From: Hyphomicrobium sp. LHD-15
GTDB taxonomy: Bacteria > Pseudomonadota > Alphaproteobacteria > Rhizobiales > Hyphomicrobiaceae
DNA length: 64,000 nt
Reading direction: 5' to 3'
Assembly: GCF_031157355.1 (NCBI RefSeq)
Contig: NZ_JAVIFT010000002.1
Location: 978,501 to 1,042,500 of the forward strand
Part shown: piece by piece, positions 2,220 through 26,083 of the stretch
How the letters are laid out: each line of letters begins with the position of its first letter
How positions within the stretch are numbered: the stretch's first letter is position 1
Translations under genes and position numbers: made by a program
The notes under the pieces: generated by a model
What the model was told of the DNA's origin: nothing
Databases searched by the model: none
What the model saw: the letters and a program-made list of their open reading frames with translations, nothing else

Positions 2220-3767
2220 ATGTCCGCATCCGTCCTGATCATCGATTTCGGCAGCCAGGTTACGCAGCTCATCGCGCGGCGCGTGCGCGAAGCCGGCGTC
2301 TATTGCGAAATCCACCCGTTCCAGAACGCGGACGCCGCGTTCGCCAAGCTCAAGCCGAAAGCCGTCATTCTTTCCGGCGGGCCATCGTCGGTGCCGGAGG
2401 CGGACAGTCCGCGTGCGCCGGACGCCGTGTTTACCTCCGGCGTTCCGGTGTTCGGCATTTGCTACGGACAGCAGACCATGGCCGAGCAATTGGGCGGCAA
2501 GGTCGAGAGCGGGCATCACCGGGAATTCGGGCGGGCGGTGCTTTCGGTCGATTCCGACAGTCCGCTGTTCGAGGGTGTGTGGGCCAAGGGTGACCGGCAT
2601 CAGGTCTGGATGAGCCACGGCGATCGCGTGACGCGGCTGCCGGACGGGTTTCGCATCATCGCCACGAGCGAGAACGCGCCGTTCGCGGCCGTCGCGGACG
2701 AAGCGCGCGGCTTCTACGCCGTGCAGTTCCATCCCGAGGTCGTGCATACGCCGGACGGCGAGAAGCTGATCTCGAATTTCGTGCATCGCATCGCGGGCCT
2801 CAAGCCCGACTGGACGATGGCCGCCTACCGCCGCGAGATGATCGAGCGTATTCGCAAGCAGGTCGGCAAGGGCCGTGTTATCTGCGGGCTTTCGGGCGGT
2901 GTCGACAGCACGGTTGCGGCGGTTTTGATCCACGAGGCGATCGGCGATCAGCTGACCTGCGTGTTCGTCGATCATGGCCTGATGCGGCTTGGTGAAGCCG
3001 AGCAGGTCGTCGGCCTGTTCCGCGATCACTACAACATTCCGCTCGTGCACGTGGATGCCTCGAAGCAGTTCCTCGATGCGCTGGCGGGGGTTTCGGATCC
3101 CGAAACCAAGCGCAAGACCATCGGCAAGCACTTCATCGACGTGTTCGAGGCGGAAGCGAAGAAGATCGGCGGCGCGGAGTTCTTGGCGCAGGGCACGCTT
3201 TATCCGGATGTCATCGAAAGCGTCTCGTTCAGCGGCGGGCCCTCGGTCACGATCAAGTCGCACCACAATGTCGGCGGTCTCCCTGAGCGCATGAACATGA
3301 AGCTCGTGGAGCCCTTGCGCGAATTGTTCAAGGACGAGGTCAGGGCGCTGGGGCGCGAGCTTGGCTTGCCGGAGGCGTTCGTCGGGCGGCATCCGTTCCC
3401 GGGGCCGGGGCTCGCGATCCGTATTCCGGGCGACATCACGGTCGAGAAACTCGACATCCTGCGCAAGGCGGACGCGATCTATCTCGACGAGATCCGCAAA
3501 GCGGGGCTTTACGACGCGATCTGGCAGGCTTTCGCCGTGCTGCTGCCGGTGCGTACCGTCGGCGTGATGGGCGACGGGCGCACCTACGACCACGTGCTGG
3601 CGCTGCGCGCGGTGACGAGCGTCGACGGCATGACAGCCGACTTCTTCCCGTTCGACATGGGTTTCCTCGGCCGTGCGGCGACGCGCATCATCAACGAGGT
3701 GCGCGGCATCAACCGCGTCGTCTACGACGTGACGAGCAAGCCGCCGGGCACTATTGAGTGGGAGTAG
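2220..3767 (+). CDS. guaA: GMP synthase (glutamine-hydrolysing)
   Basis: GuaA converts XMP to GMP with ATP and glutamine in the cytoplasm, the last step of guanine nucleotide synthesis. The 515-residue product is full length for the family. The N-terminal class I glutamine amidotransferase has nucleophile C81 in GICYGQQ and H171/E173 in QFHPEV. The ATP-pyrophosphatase domain has the P-loop SGGVDST from residue 225. The C-terminal dimerisation domain ends in the typical KPPGTIEWE. The ATG at 2220 fits the family start ([10 protein letters not shown]); the longer open frame back to 1779 has no similarity. A GGGAG about 14 bases upstream is a weak ribosome site. The stop codon lies inside the first copy of a tandem repeat (see 3756-3846). 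Confidence 0.97.
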
Positions 3768-5393: not shown

Positions 5394-6719
5394 TCAGGCG
5401 ACGGCCGCCTCCTTCTGGCGCTCGCGGCGGCCGAGATAGCCGCCGGTAGCCGCCCAGCCGAGCGCGATCCCCGCGCCGATCATCATGGCCAAAGCTGGGC
5501 TCTCGGCGAAAACGTCGAGCCCGCGCTTGACCCAGCCGCCGATGGCGTCGCCGCCGCGGTAGACGACGGTGTCGATGAAGTTCTTGGCCTTGTACTTCTC
5601 CTCGGGCGCGGCCACGGCGAACAGCATCTCGCGGCCGGGGCGGACGAGGGCGTATTCGCCGACACGGCGGGCGATCATGATGAGGGCGAGCACTGCGAAT
5701 ACCGGGGCGACCGCGAGCCACAGGAAGCCGGCGGCCATCGCCAGGGGAACCGAGACGAGTAAAACGCCTATGCCAAACCGCTCGGCGATGCGTCCGGTCA
5801 GGAACACCTGAATGACGATGGTCAGTGTTTGGACGACGGTGTCGATCAGTCCGAACACCTGGGTTTGGCGAACCTTGTCGGGAAATGTCTCTGCGACGAG
5901 CTTCGCCTGCTCGAAATAGAGGAACGTGCTGACCACGGCGAGCAGGATCACGAAGAGTGCGATGGCTGCCAGATAGCCGGACTTCACAACGGCGCTCGCA
6001 CCCGCGAAAGGATGTCCGCCGAGCGGCCGGCCGCGCGGCGCGTGCTGATCGCTTGCGAACAGGGTGGATTCAGTTTGTGGGCTGCGATCTCGCCAACGAT
6101 GCAGCCAGGCCGCGGCGAGCGCACTGAGAGCCAGAAGCACGGCGGCCAGCAGCAGCAGGCCCGCGTGTCCGATCGGCGCGACAAGCGTCGTGCCGAGAAT
6201 GGGGCCGGTCAATCCGCCGAGACTTGCGCCGCCGGCGATCATGGCGAACAGGCGCTTGGCTTCGGAAGCCGCGAGAACGTCTGCCAGTACGCTCCAGGCC
6301 AGCGAGATCGCCAGCAGATTGAAGACCGACAGCCAGACGTAGAACGTTCGCGCCATCCAGATGTTGTCGGGATCGATCACGAAGCCCACCGCGAATGCGA
6401 TGAGGTTCAGGGTGAAAAACGCGTAGGTCCAGGCCAGGACATGGCGGCGAGGGACCTTCGAGGCGATCCATCCGAACAGCGGCAACGCGATCAGCGTTGC
6501 GACGAAAGTGGCGGTGAAGAGCCACTGCAGATTGTCGATGCCGCCGGCGATCCCCATGGTCTCTCGGACGGGGCGCAGCATGAAATAGCCGGCGAACAGC
6601 AGATAGAACATGCCGACACCGGCCGCGACGGCGGGAACCTCCTCGCGCTCGACATTGAAGAGTGTCGAAAGGCGAGAGCGTTTGAACCAAGCGGCGATGC
6701 TCTCCATGTGCTGGATCAC
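5394..6719 (-). CDS. NTP/NDP exchange transporter-like (COG3202) membrane protein
   Basis: The 441-residue polytopic protein has roughly ten to twelve hydrophobic segments. The block YFMLRPVRETMGIAGGIDNL (residues 41-60) and the conserved arginine-rich C-terminal stretch ARRVGEYALVRPGREMLF match proteins annotated as ATP/ADP translocase-like or MFS-like NTP/NDP exchangers. Classic members feed intracellular parasites such as Chlamydia and Rickettsia; the role in free-living alphaproteobacteria is unknown. The likely start is GTG 6719, which overlaps the TGA of the upstream aldo/keto reductase gene (GTGA), so translation is probably coupled. An in-frame ATG at 6707 is the alternative. The substrate is not shown by sequence. 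Confidence 0.75.
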   Translation of the reverse strand: MIQHMESIAAWFKRSRLSTLFNVEREEVPAVAAGVGMFYLLFAGYFMLRPVRETMGIAGGIDNLQWLFTATFVATLIALPLFGWIASKVPRRHVLAWTYAFFTLNLIAFAVGFVIDPDNIWMARTFYVWLSVFNLLAISLAWSVLADVLAASEAKRLFAMIAGGASLGGLTGPILGTTLVAPIGHAGLLLLAAVLLALSALAAAWLHRWRDRSPQTESTLFASDQHAPRGRPLGGHPFAGASAVVKSGYLAAIALFVILLAVVSTFLYFEQAKLVAETFPDKVRQTQVFGLIDTVVQTLTIVIQVFLTGRIAERFGIGVLLVSVPLAMAAGFLWLAVAPVFAVLALIMIARRVGEYALVRPGREMLFAVAAPEEKYKAKNFIDTVVYRGGDAIGGWVKRGLDVFAESPALAMMIGAGIALGWAATGGYLGRRERQKEAAVA

Positions 6720-7660
6720 GCGAAGACGGAAATCAGCGACGCACGCTGCGCTTCGGTGAGATCCGGTCCGGTGCCGGCCTTCAGGTTATCGGCCTGCCGG
6801 TTCGGCTTGCCGGTTGCGGGAATGACGGCGGTCACGGCCGGCTGGCTCAATGCGAATTTGAGGAATGCCTGTGCCCAGGAACTGATGCCGGCCTCTGCCG
6901 CCCAATCCGGCAACGGCGTATCCTTGACGCGTGAGAACAGCTTTCCGTCCTCGAAAGCGCGGTTGATCAGAACGGCGACGCCGAGATCGCGCGCGAGTGG
7001 CAGGACGCGTTTTTCCGCGCCGCGCGTCACCACCGAATAGTTGATCTGCAGGAAGTCCGGCTTTTCCTTTTCGACGATATCAGCGAGCCGATCCTGGGCG
7101 CCCTCGACATAGTGCGTGACGCCGACGTAGCGGGTTTTTCCTTCCGCCTTTAGCTCGCGGGCCAGCGCGAGCTGGGTTTCGAGATCGCCGAGATTGTGAA
7201 CCTGTAGCAGCTCGACCTTGTCGGTTTTCAGCCGCTTCAGCGTGGAGTTGAACTGTGCAAGGCCGTCTTCGCGGCCACGTACGCCCGAGAGCTTGGTTGC
7301 GAGCCAGGTTTTAGGACGGAGGTTCTGCTCGGCCAGCAGTGCGCCCAGCACGTCTTCGGCATTGCTGTACGTGGGGGCCGTATCAATGAGCGTGCCGCCG
7401 CCGGTGACGAAGATTTTCAGAACGTCTTTCAGCGCTTCGTATTCGGGCGTGTTCTCGCCGACCTCGAAGCTGCCGGACGTGCCCATGCCGATGACGGGAA
7501 TTCTTTCGCCGGTCGAGGGGATCACACGGGTTGCGAGCGCGGTGGTGGATTGATCCGCTGCCGTGGCGTTGTCGGCCCTTGCAGCCGAATTCCACGGTGC
7601 CATCGCAAGGAGTGCTGCGGCCGAGCCAGTCGTGCTCAGAAACGTACGGCGTGACTGCAT
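6716..7660 (-). CDS. Tat-exported aldo/keto reductase
   Basis: The 314-residue protein starts with a twin-arginine signal (SRRTFLSTTGSAAALLAM) and an alanine-rich cleavage region near residue 30, so it should be folded in the cytoplasm and exported with its cofactor. The rest is an aldo/keto reductase barrel: VIGMGTSG, the catalytic Asp/Tyr region LIDTAPTYSNAED, Lys in ATKLSG, and His in LLQVHNLGD. The NAD(P)H-dependent substrate is not predictable. ATG 7660 is supported by AAGGAGGAG seven bases upstream and by the signal peptide; the open frame continues 13 codons further up. Its TGA overlaps the start of the transporter gene. Confidence 0.88.
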   Translation of the reverse strand: MQSRRTFLSTTGSAAALLAMAPWNSAARADNATAADQSTTALATRVIPSTGERIPVIGMGTSGSFEVGENTPEYEALKDVLKIFVTGGGTLIDTAPTYSNAEDVLGALLAEQNLRPKTWLATKLSGVRGREDGLAQFNSTLKRLKTDKVELLQVHNLGDLETQLALARELKAEGKTRYVGVTHYVEGAQDRLADIVEKEKPDFLQINYSVVTRGAEKRVLPLARDLGVAVLINRAFEDGKLFSRVKDTPLPDWAAEAGISSWAQAFLKFALSQPAVTAVIPATGKPNRQADNLKAGTGPDLTEAQRASLISVFA

Positions 7661-7776: not shown

Positions 7777-7814
7777 AAAAACGAATGGCCCCCCAGTGGG
7801 GGGACTGGGGGGCC
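7777..7814 (-). terminator. Intrinsic terminator of the predicted C-rich sRNA
   Basis: A perfect 11-bp stem (GGCCCCCCAGT, 7787-7797 with 7804-7814) encloses a hexaloop that is CCCCCC on the minus strand. It is followed by ATTCGTTTTTAAGG on the minus strand. It also separates the RNA from the aldo/keto reductase gene, which starts at 7660. Confidence 0.8.
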
Positions 7815-7945
7815 GACCGTGGGATGAACGCTGCCAGCGCGGAGGGGGGAACCCGCAGCAGCGTTCTGTCTCGCCAGAAAACGGGGGTCTTTCTGGCGGA
7901 TCTGGGAACTCAACAGCCGGGAGGGGGCTTCGGTTCCCACCCCCA
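7777..7945 (-). ncRNA. Predicted sRNA with four C-rich-loop hairpins
   Basis: On the minus strand, in 5' to 3' order, are hairpins at 7904-7938 (GGGAAC/GTTCCC plus inner AGCC/GGCT, loop CCCTCCC), 7872-7898 (9-bp CGCCAGAAA stem, loop GACCCCCGT), 7826-7866 (9-bp GAACGCTGC stem plus inner GCGG/CCGC, loop containing CCCCCC) and the terminator 7787-7814. Every loop shows a run of five or more C (or CCCTCCC), which would pair with GGAGG-type Shine-Dalgarno sites. This design resembles the CcsR RNAs of Rhodobacter and the alpha-r14 family. It lies between prfB and the aldo/keto reductase gene on their strand, so it has its own promoter or is cut from a prfB transcript. The 5' end is uncertain. Confidence 0.55.
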
Positions 7946-7997
7946 GACCATGAAATTTTCTAAGGCCGCGCGCTGTCACGTAGGGAACAGGAGAAAA

Positions 7998-8081: not shown

Positions 8082-9213
8082 CTAGTCGAGGTCGGCGATC
8101 ACCGCGTCGGCACCGCCCTTCATGCGCTGGGCGAGCGTCGCCTCGATGAACGGATCGATGTCGCCATCGAGAACCGCATCGGGGTTCGAGCTTTGGGCGC
8201 CGGTCCGCAGGTCCTTCACGAGCTGATAGGGCTGGAGAACGTAAGAACGGATCTGGTGGCCCCAGCCGATATCGGTTTTGGCGGCCTGGTCCGCCGAGGC
8301 CTGCTGCTCACGCCGCTTGAGCTCCATCTCATAGAGGCGAGCTTTGAGGCGCTTGTAGGCGATGTCCTTGTTCTGGTGCTGGGAGCGCTGCTCTTGAGCG
8401 AAGATCACGATGCCGGTGGGCTTGTGCACAAGGCGCACCGCAGACTCCGTGCGGTTGACGTGCTGGCCGCCGGCGCCGCTCGAACGCGCGAAGCTCATAT
8501 CGACGTCGGCCGGGTTGATTTCGATGTCGATCGAGTCGTCGATCACCGGATAGACCGTGACCGACGCGAAGCTCGTGTGGCGGCGTGCGTTGGAATCGAA
8601 CGGCGAGATGCGCACGAGGCGATGAACGCCGGCTTCGGTCTTGAGCCAGCCGAAGGCGTTCTCGCCCTCGATCTCGAGGGTTGCGGATTTGATGCCGGCC
8701 TCTTCGCCCGGGCTTTCGTCGATCAGCTTGACCTTGAAGCCGCGGCGCTCGCCCCACCGCATGTACATGCGGGTGAGCATCGAGGCCCAGTCCTGGCTCT
8801 CGGTGCCGCCCGCGCCGGCGTGAATTTCGATGTAGGTATCCATACCGTCGGCTTCGCCGGACAGCATGGCTTCCACGCTCTTGCGTTGAACTTCCTCGTC
8901 GAGACGCTTGAGCGCGCCTTCGCCCTCAATGACGATAGCGTCGTCGTCCTCGGCTTCGCCGAGTTCGATCAGCGTGAGGTTGTCCTCGAAATCGCGCTCG
9001 ATACGCCGAAGCTCCGTCAGGGAGCGTTCGAGCTGCTGGCGCTGGCGCATGACCTTCTGGGCTTGGGCGGGATCGTTCCAGAGGGCAGGATCTTCCGCGC
9101 GCCGATTGAGATCGGCTAGGCGAGCTTCAGCTTGCTCCGGGTCAAAGAGACCTCCTCAAGAGGACCAGCGCCTCTTCGATCGAAGCCACGACTTTTTGCG
9201 CTTCAGCGCGCAT
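8082..9213 (-). CDS. prfB: Peptide chain release factor 2, with programmed +1 frameshift
   Basis: RF2 ends translation at UGA and UAA. The full gene starts at ATG 9213 after AGGAGG. After 23 codons a TGA (9144-9142) interrupts the frame; the local sequence is AGGAGG-TCT-CTT-TGA-C, the internal Shine-Dalgarno and slippery CTT-TGA-C of the known RF2 autoregulatory frameshift. Shifting +1 continues as [19 protein letters not shown] and joins the 322-residue frame that opens at 9050, giving 376 residues. RF2 marks are SPF in [14 protein letters not shown] (tripeptide anticodon) and GGQ in SGAGGQHVN (peptidyl release). When RF2 is scarce, the slow UGA promotes the shift. Annotation starting at 9050 would lose the N-terminal domain. 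Confidence 0.96.
9142..9156 (-). promoter_or_regulatory. RF2 programmed +1 frameshift signal
   Basis: On the minus strand AGGAGG (9156-9151) is followed by TCT, then CTT (9147-9145), the in-frame stop TGA (9144-9142) and C. The 3-base spacing from the Shine-Dalgarno-like element to CTT equals that of E. coli prfB. Downstream zero-frame codons soon become nonsense, while the +1 frame encodes RF2. Confidence 0.95.
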
Positions 9214-25399: not shown

Positions 25400-26083
25400 A
25401 TGGCGTCGCGCGACGACATCATGATCGAGATTACGCCGCAGGTCCTTCTCAAGGCCTATAGTTGCGGCATCTTTCCCATGGCCGAAAGCGCTGACGATCC
25501 GGCGCTCTACTGGATCGAGCCCCAGCATCGCGGCATTCTTCCACTCGAGCACGTGCACGTTCCGCGGCGGTTGCAGCGGACGGTGCGCAGCGGCACGCTG
25601 CGGGTCGCGATCGATACCGACTATGACGGCGTGATCGAGGGATGTGCCGCGGAGCGGGCCGGGCGGCGCTCGACCTGGATCAACGGGCGTATTCGCGGCC
25701 TCTATCAGGAGCTGTTCCGGCTCGGCCATTGCCATACCGTCGAGGTATGGGACGAGGATCGGCTGGTCGGCGGCCTCTATGGCGTCGCGCTCGGTGGCGC
25801 GTTCTTTGGCGAGAGCATGTTTTCCTATGTCCGGGACGCCTCCAAGATTGCCCTGGTGCATCTGGTTGGCCGTCTCATCGGCGGGGGCTTCACGCTGCTC
25901 GATACGCAATTCGTGACCGATCACCTTCGCCAGTTCGGCACGATCGAGGTCGATCGTGACGACTTTCACGGTCTGCTCGACGGCGCGCTCAAGCACTCGG
26001 CTGACTTCTTGCGGCTGCCGCTCGACACTCCGGGCCCGGCCATTCTCGACATCATCGAACAGGCGCAGGGCGGGGCCCGCTGA
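25400..26083 (+). CDS. aat: Leucyl/phenylalanyl-tRNA-protein transferase (canonical copy)
   Basis: Aat attaches Leu or Phe from aminoacyl-tRNA to proteins that begin with Lys or Arg, marking them for ClpS/ClpAP. The product of 227 residues keeps the family motifs: [32 protein letters not shown] (TWI), [25 protein letters not shown] and [11 protein letters not shown], with the D-x-Q pair intact. ATG 25400 or GTG 25397, directly preceding, could start it; GGGAG lies about 10 bases upstream. A second, divergent family member is at 1005-1940. The methyltransferase gene follows 33 bp later. Confidence 0.95.

Follow-up and report, generated by a model that had tools for sequence, protein, structure and literature searches.

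The alpha-r14/cuckoo RNAs (RF02344; NfeR1, SmelA075/SmelA099, CcsR1-4) of Alphaproteobacteria consist of several hairpins with exposed C-rich loops, in which the stems vary and the loops are kept. In the passages of PMC3927594 consulted, the anti-Shine-Dalgarno (anti-SD) motif CCUCCUCCC is given for cuckoo/ar14 loops, and members with three or four hairpins are described; features of the cuckoo and CcsR RNAs were also taken from parts of PMC10253847 and PMC7143759, the latter reporting anti-SD loops for NfeR1. Two sRNAs of Caulobacter were considered as well, likewise after excerpts of the respective papers: GsrN, in which a loop of six tandem cytosines pairs with G-rich mRNA sites (PMC5869019), and ChvR, which is controlled by an envelope-related two-component system and pairs through its stem-loops (PMC6237742). 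The consensus of ar7 (RF02342) spans about 145 positions and has C-run loops such as CCCCC. 6C RNA (RF01066), a family of Actinobacteria, has hairpins with six-C loops in its consensus.

In the window, the whole 64-kb stretch of Hyphomicrobium sp. LHD-15 DNA analysed here, a four-hairpin RNA with a C-run in each loop and a strong intrinsic terminator at its end can be read from the minus strand of 7777-7945. An Rfam scan of the window gave no matches at gathering level, in agreement with the original prediction, which had found no family that could be named exactly. Below that level, scores of 28.8 bits for ar14 (gathering threshold 58.8), 27.5 bits for ar7 (60) and 19.8 bits for 6C (47) were obtained. 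The RNA resembles the alpha-r14/cuckoo group in its several hairpins, its exposed C-rich loops, its variable stems and constant loops, its alphaproteobacterial origin and its sub-threshold profile matches; it differs in that C-runs take the place of CCUCCUCCC in loops 2-4, that the upstream motif is another one, that no DUF1127 gene adjoins it, that strong matches are confined to one genus, and that it reaches about half the gathering cut-off. It has C-run loops in common with ar7, 6C and GsrN, but differs from the first two by the scores given above and from GsrN by an upstream region that is not of the conserved sigma-EcfG type. No sequence relation to ChvR was shown, the likeness lying in the putative envelope-linked control. 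Membership in ar14/cuckoo, ar7, GsrN (judged by its promoter) and 6C was rejected after the tests for each, and the RNA may work like the members of these families. By title and start of abstract, no sRNA of Hyphomicrobium was described in the literature searched.

Fold, strand and conservation of the RNA

The gene and its structural elements were placed as follows:
7777..7940, minus strand: sRNA gene of about 164 nt, with a putative 5' end and a 3' end given by the terminator tail
7903..7939, minus strand: hairpin 1, loop CCCUCCC
7872..7898, minus strand: hairpin 2, loop ACCCCCG (C-run)
7826..7866, minus strand: hairpin 3, loop UUCCCCCCU
7777..7814, minus strand: hairpin 4, the intrinsic terminator with its U tail (stem-loop 7787-7814, loop CCCCCC, tail AUUCGUUUUU)

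The minus strand folds with a minimum free energy of -90.5 kcal/mol, compared with a shuffle mean of -69.85 (z = -4.87, none of 200 shuffles as low), and ends in a strong terminator of 11 pairs, so that the predicted four-hairpin RNA with C-rich loops and a minus-strand terminator is borne out by the sequence. The description of its hairpins as perfect or near-perfect holds overall, except for hairpin 1, the stem of which is bulged and thus not perfect. The plus strand of 7777-7945 also folds (z = -2.97, 1/200 shuffles as low), and a single weak terminator-like site of 5 pairs is found on it inside the region (7869-7886). Over the eight species, the minus-strand reading contains 19 G-U cells versus 5 A-C cells, which indicates the minus strand as the RNA strand. 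When both strands of the window and of 400 kb of contig C2 were scanned for clusters of at least three C-loop hairpins (stem length at least 6, loop containing CCCC), this cluster was the sole one.

DNA comparison with 60 relatives yielded strong matches in the genus only, in seven of its eight genomes, the remainder being stretches of 18-31 bases. A covariance model (R1) built from these seven sequences detected the RNA in all eight Hyphomicrobium genomes with 133.8-167.8 bits; the eighth genome, matched by R1 without a DNA match, is a draft of 88% completeness. Among named genomes, a pattern scan picked out Hyphomicrobium zavarzinii ATCC 27496 (G004) and three Hyphomicrobium MAGs (G001, G002, G005).

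In the alignment of the seven sequences, which also supplied the structure and therefore favours it somewhat, two-sided (compensatory) changes occurred in 16/47 pairs, a measure equalled by none of 500 shuffles, and 96.2% of the cells were paired, compared with 42.8-52.1% for slid partners. The number of further pair types showed no excess over shuffles (238/500 as high). Two-sided changes were found in 8/11 pairs of hairpin 2 and 7/15 pairs of hairpin 3, and 10/11 pairs of the terminator stem of hairpin 4 were invariant. Column identity averaged 89% in the loops and 85% in the stems outside the terminator. All four loops retain C-runs of 3-7 in all eight species, loop 1 with CUCCC in 8/8 and CCUCC in 6/8. 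Conserved, exposed C-run loops are hence carried by stems of which hairpins 2 and 3 covary and the terminator stem hardly changes, and the covariance search that had been proposed as a check of conservation came out in favour of the RNA within the genus.

Promoter region and neighbouring genes

The elements upstream of the sRNA and the genes around it are:
7974..7989, minus strand: palindromic operator TGTTCC-N4-GGAACA, here TGTTCCCTACGTGACA with two mismatches, present in all 8 genus genomes
7947..7952, minus strand: putative -10-like hexamer CATGGT, YATGGT or TAAGGT in most relatives
8082..9050, minus strand: prfB (PCRF and RF-1 domains), upstream neighbour in 7/8 genus genomes, outside the sRNA unit
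6716..7660, minus strand: aldo/keto reductase, downstream neighbour on the same strand in 7/8 genus genomes
2643..3764, plus strand: guaA, of whose frame the C-terminal part was used; it runs convergently to the sRNA and is the syntenic anchor across genera
25559-26056: aat

Position 7940, where hairpin 1 begins, was taken as the putative start site. If this base counts as +1, the palindrome is centred at -41.5, which is the centre position of class II activators. With the 75 upstream bases aligned ungapped, the palindrome starts at -49 in seven of the eight genus genomes and at -48 in G006. A consensus sigma-70 scan found nothing, and the lack of a recognisable -35 element is consistent with an activated promoter. 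A sigma-EcfG promoter, which has the form GGAAC-N15-18-GTT, was rejected, as this pattern occurred in just 1/8 upstream regions. The upstream region is conserved and carries the palindrome at near-fixed spacing throughout the genus, which supports the own promoter assumed for the RNA.

The second origin that had been suggested, the prfB transcript, fared worse. As prfB immediately precedes it, on its own strand, in 7/8 genus genomes, the RNA could be read as a 3'-UTR product cut from prfB mRNA. In G002, however, prfB is located about 167 kb from the RNA, and both the RNA and its upstream palindrome persist, which argues that the sRNA is no by-product of prfB; synteny moreover suggests that an inversion brought prfB to its place, and we regard this origin as extremely improbable. 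The interval from aat to guaA holds C-loop RNAs in four other genera (g5, g8, g16, g22), where they face guaA in convergent orientation; at two of these loci (L143, L160), aat was confirmed by Pfam. The gene order seen today would follow from an inversion with one end between the RNA and aat and the other at prfB.

Three further observations were made in this context. The aldo/keto reductase begins with MQSRRTFLSTTGSAAALLAM, resembling a twin-arginine export signal. The minus-strand frame at 5394-6719 of the window encodes a transporter that matches both the MFS and the TLC ATP/ADP transporter family. A draft genome of the genus contains a second, weak R1 match of 33.9 bits (L046, G003:C393:1851-2023) with a C-run terminator loop, for which the operator was not found within 300 nt upstream.

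C-loop RNAs beyond the genus

In the family-wide search, R1 matched 9/103 genomes, eight of which belong to Hyphomicrobium; in the order-wide search it matched 5/249, one being the window's own and the other four (L184-L187), in other families of the order, scoring 29-36 bits. Because only some candidates were scored per genome (27 in the family and 11 in the order), divergent copies can be missed. Applied without filters to 22 prfB loci outside the genus (20 from g11, one from g14, one from g23), R1 reached 14.8 bits at best.

With guaA as anchor, 40 stretches 3' of this gene were examined, 11 from the sister genus g11, one from g14 and 28 from other genera, five of the 40 being shorter than 1 kb. 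A hairpin scan identified C-loop RNA candidates in L142, L143 and L160, and weak model matches (over 16 of the stretches) were obtained in L136 (25.1 bits), L130 (19.6 bits), L140 (17.8 bits) and L138 (17.7 bits); L047, a C-loop RNA locus from the family-wide R1 search, belongs to the same genus as L142. Eleven clusters were dropped, as no T-run followed them: two- or three-hairpin clusters in L128, L129, L131, L133, L135 (two), L139, L144 and L147, one in L136 at 906-983, and one in L140 near 4.5 kb.

The operator, with at most two mismatches, occurs within 300 nt upstream of 6/9 RNA starts outside the genus (L143, L140, L142, L130 and two in L047, for the second of which 150 nt were searched), at a background of 0.076 per 320 nt. 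In the remaining loci, L136, L138 and L160 (three genomes of genera g7 and g8), the palindrome is located further upstream and precedes a small reading frame that starts like a signal peptide; the stop codon of this ORF is followed by a 3' UTR with C-loop hairpins and a terminator. All 40 guaA stretches were searched for the palindrome, which is also present in many of them with no C-loop RNA behind it and is thus not specific to these RNAs. In genus g16 (L047 and L142), a tandem pair of C-loop RNAs was observed between aat and guaA, each with a two-mismatch operator. In the 11 stretches of the sister genus g11, 10 of which contained aat, no such RNA was found, the hairpin scan giving two weak clusters without T-run (L128, L129); as judged from these sequences, g11 either lacks the RNA or has it in an unrecognisable form, an argument against simple vertical inheritance along every line. 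On the grounds that the RNA forms a 3' UTR in g7 and g8 and stands alone, with the ORF missing, in others, we tentatively consider that the Hyphomicrobiaceae might possess a fast-evolving C-loop RNA lineage with one operator of an exported-protein regulon, graded from mRNA tail to independent sRNA and answering to an unnamed envelope regulator.

The same loci bear on the possibility that the RNA acts in cis on the aldo/keto reductase, as its 5' leader or attenuator, with transcription starting at the operator and stopping at the terminator unless a signal induces read-through. The reductase does follow directly on the same strand in 7/8 genus genomes, and base pairing between the G arm of the terminator and a C-run loop is conceivable. 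In H. zavarzinii (G004), however, the RNA is intact and followed by the convergent guaA, and no aldo/keto reductase was found in 18 kb around it. Neither the 40 guaA stretches of other genera nor L047 yielded a reductase match (E <= 1e-10), several of these reductase-free guaA stretches hold C-loop RNAs with the operator, and the terminator stem is almost invariant. A leader function therefore appears quite unlikely.

A canonical anti-SD RNA of the cuckoo/alpha-r14 kind, blocking many ribosome binding sites, is only slightly easier to reconcile with the data and still unlikely. This reading draws on the window's sub-threshold matches to ar14 (28.8 bits) and ar7 (27.5 bits), on an ar14 score of 39.4 bits for the guaA-adjacent RNA of g16, and on the published members with three or four hairpins and anti-SD loops, as far as the passages of PMC3927594 describe them. 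These scores are, however, about half the gathering thresholds; among the eight genus loci, L038 (32.9 bits) was the sole one listed for ar14 at E <= 0.5, and ar7 at E <= 0.001 gave 0/8 genus genomes with 42 candidates scored per genome. The loop table of the eight species does not contain a CCUCCUCCC-type motif in every loop; CCUCCUCCC itself is absent, and CCUCC occurs in loop 1 only, in six of the species. A linked DUF1127 gene, as in the CIN1 locus, is lacking: the only DUF1127 match of the window's genome is on contig C1 and the RNA on C2, and around DUF1127 in 4/8 genus genomes the script's rule found no CCUCC-loop hairpin within 1.5 kb. Finally, of 21 ar14/ar7 loci, for which 20 of the 25 ar14 matches were scanned, 20 lack the operator (at most two mismatches) in the 300 nt before them, and the single operator-bearing locus is the guaA-adjacent RNA of g16.

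Operator copies, loop targets and proposed role

Allowing up to one mismatch, the palindrome is found in 95 copies in the eight genomes, compared with 36 for the reversed pattern; no published account of TGTTCC-N4-GGAACA was found in the literature search. At 10 of the 17 near-exact sites of this genome, which exclude the window's own palindrome with its two mismatches, an ORF with a signal-peptide-like start begins 40-200 nt away. The same rule was satisfied at 320/3000 random positions (10.7%) and at 57/292 points 80 nt upstream of called gene starts (19.5%), so that the enrichment over gene starts is about threefold. At least two of the 10 matches look spurious (L165, L177), and at L174 and L181 the rule overlooked a visible signal peptide. 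A second set of palindrome loci gave 5/16; it includes one misplaced site (L083), two sites from this genome (L086, L094), two sRNA operators (L082, L091) and five instances of one conserved histidine-kinase site.

Sixteen proteins at palindrome sites were searched against Pfam, and eight scored above the curated cut-off (8/10 in one batch, 0/6 in the other), representing histidine kinase, metallo-beta-lactamase fold, AsnC regulator, DUF3829, FecR, bacterial alpha-2-macroglobulin, M50 peptidase and OmpA families; the other eight had no family over the cut-off. The shared operator suggests a link between the sRNA and a putative exported-protein regulon, in place of the stress- or carbon-related role assumed in the original prediction.

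One of the palindrome sites was inspected individually. At L167 (G000:C3:22390-22407), an exact palindrome lies between a gene of the metallo-beta-lactamase fold, behind which an AsnC-type regulator is encoded, and a histidine kinase, and exact palindromes occupy the same place in L084, L090, L095, L096 and L097 of other genus genomes. No response-regulator domain was found in the eight other proteins scanned from the 12 kb that hold this kinase, one of which had no family.

For the loops, the original prediction had assumed that they sequester SD sites. GGGAG, which is matched by the CUCCC of loop 1 (8/8), occurs 12 times before 142 constrained starts, the highest count among the 25 most enriched 5-mers listed, and in 8.5% of the SD windows, compared with 2.1% and 0% further upstream. 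GGGG, in contrast, is not enriched (7.0%, versus 6.3 and 5.6% further upstream). Complementary runs of at least 7 to loop 1 were counted at the starts of the 376 gene calls, minus those less than 120 nt from a stretch end, and were found at 25 starts, compared with 20 for the reversed loop and 8 for an upstream window. Since the reversed loop matches SD windows almost as often, the claim of specific targets is weakened and the proposed target prediction with the loops is not specific. SD sequestration is thus retained for loop 1 with reservation: judged by sequence fit, loop 1 is suited to SD sites, and loops 2-4 are not SD-specific.

The latter point would also agree with a role as a sponge, titrating some other regulatory RNA that is G-rich, or with a protein-binding RNA, in place of an mRNA regulator: homopolymer C loops are not SD-specific, and a sponge is known from Caulobacter, where, according to the part of PMC12559287 consulted, CrfA, the second stem loop of which is G/A-rich, acts in this way on the anti-SD sRNAs SisA-D. 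The invariant CUCCC of loop 1, however, fits SD sites, and we rate either function as no more probable than the reductase leader.

We instead favour the view that the RNA is probably an autonomous, trans-acting base-pairing sRNA, which would constitute the non-coding arm of an exported-protein/envelope regulon. A dimeric activator bound to the palindrome at -41.5, in class II geometry, would turn on the sRNA and would likewise switch on the genes of exported and envelope proteins that bear the same operator. The C-rich loops, loop 1 first, would then pair with G-rich stretches at or near the SD sites of other mRNAs, mostly lowering their translation, with the four loops providing several docking points per molecule. 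In Caulobacter terms, the sRNA would parallel the role of ChvR for ChvI. A C-loop RNA tied to the operator of exported proteins offers a tangible starting point for tracing an envelope regulator that has yet to be named, and its 3'-UTR counterparts in related genera would make it possible to follow how an sRNA gene gains independence from a coding gene.
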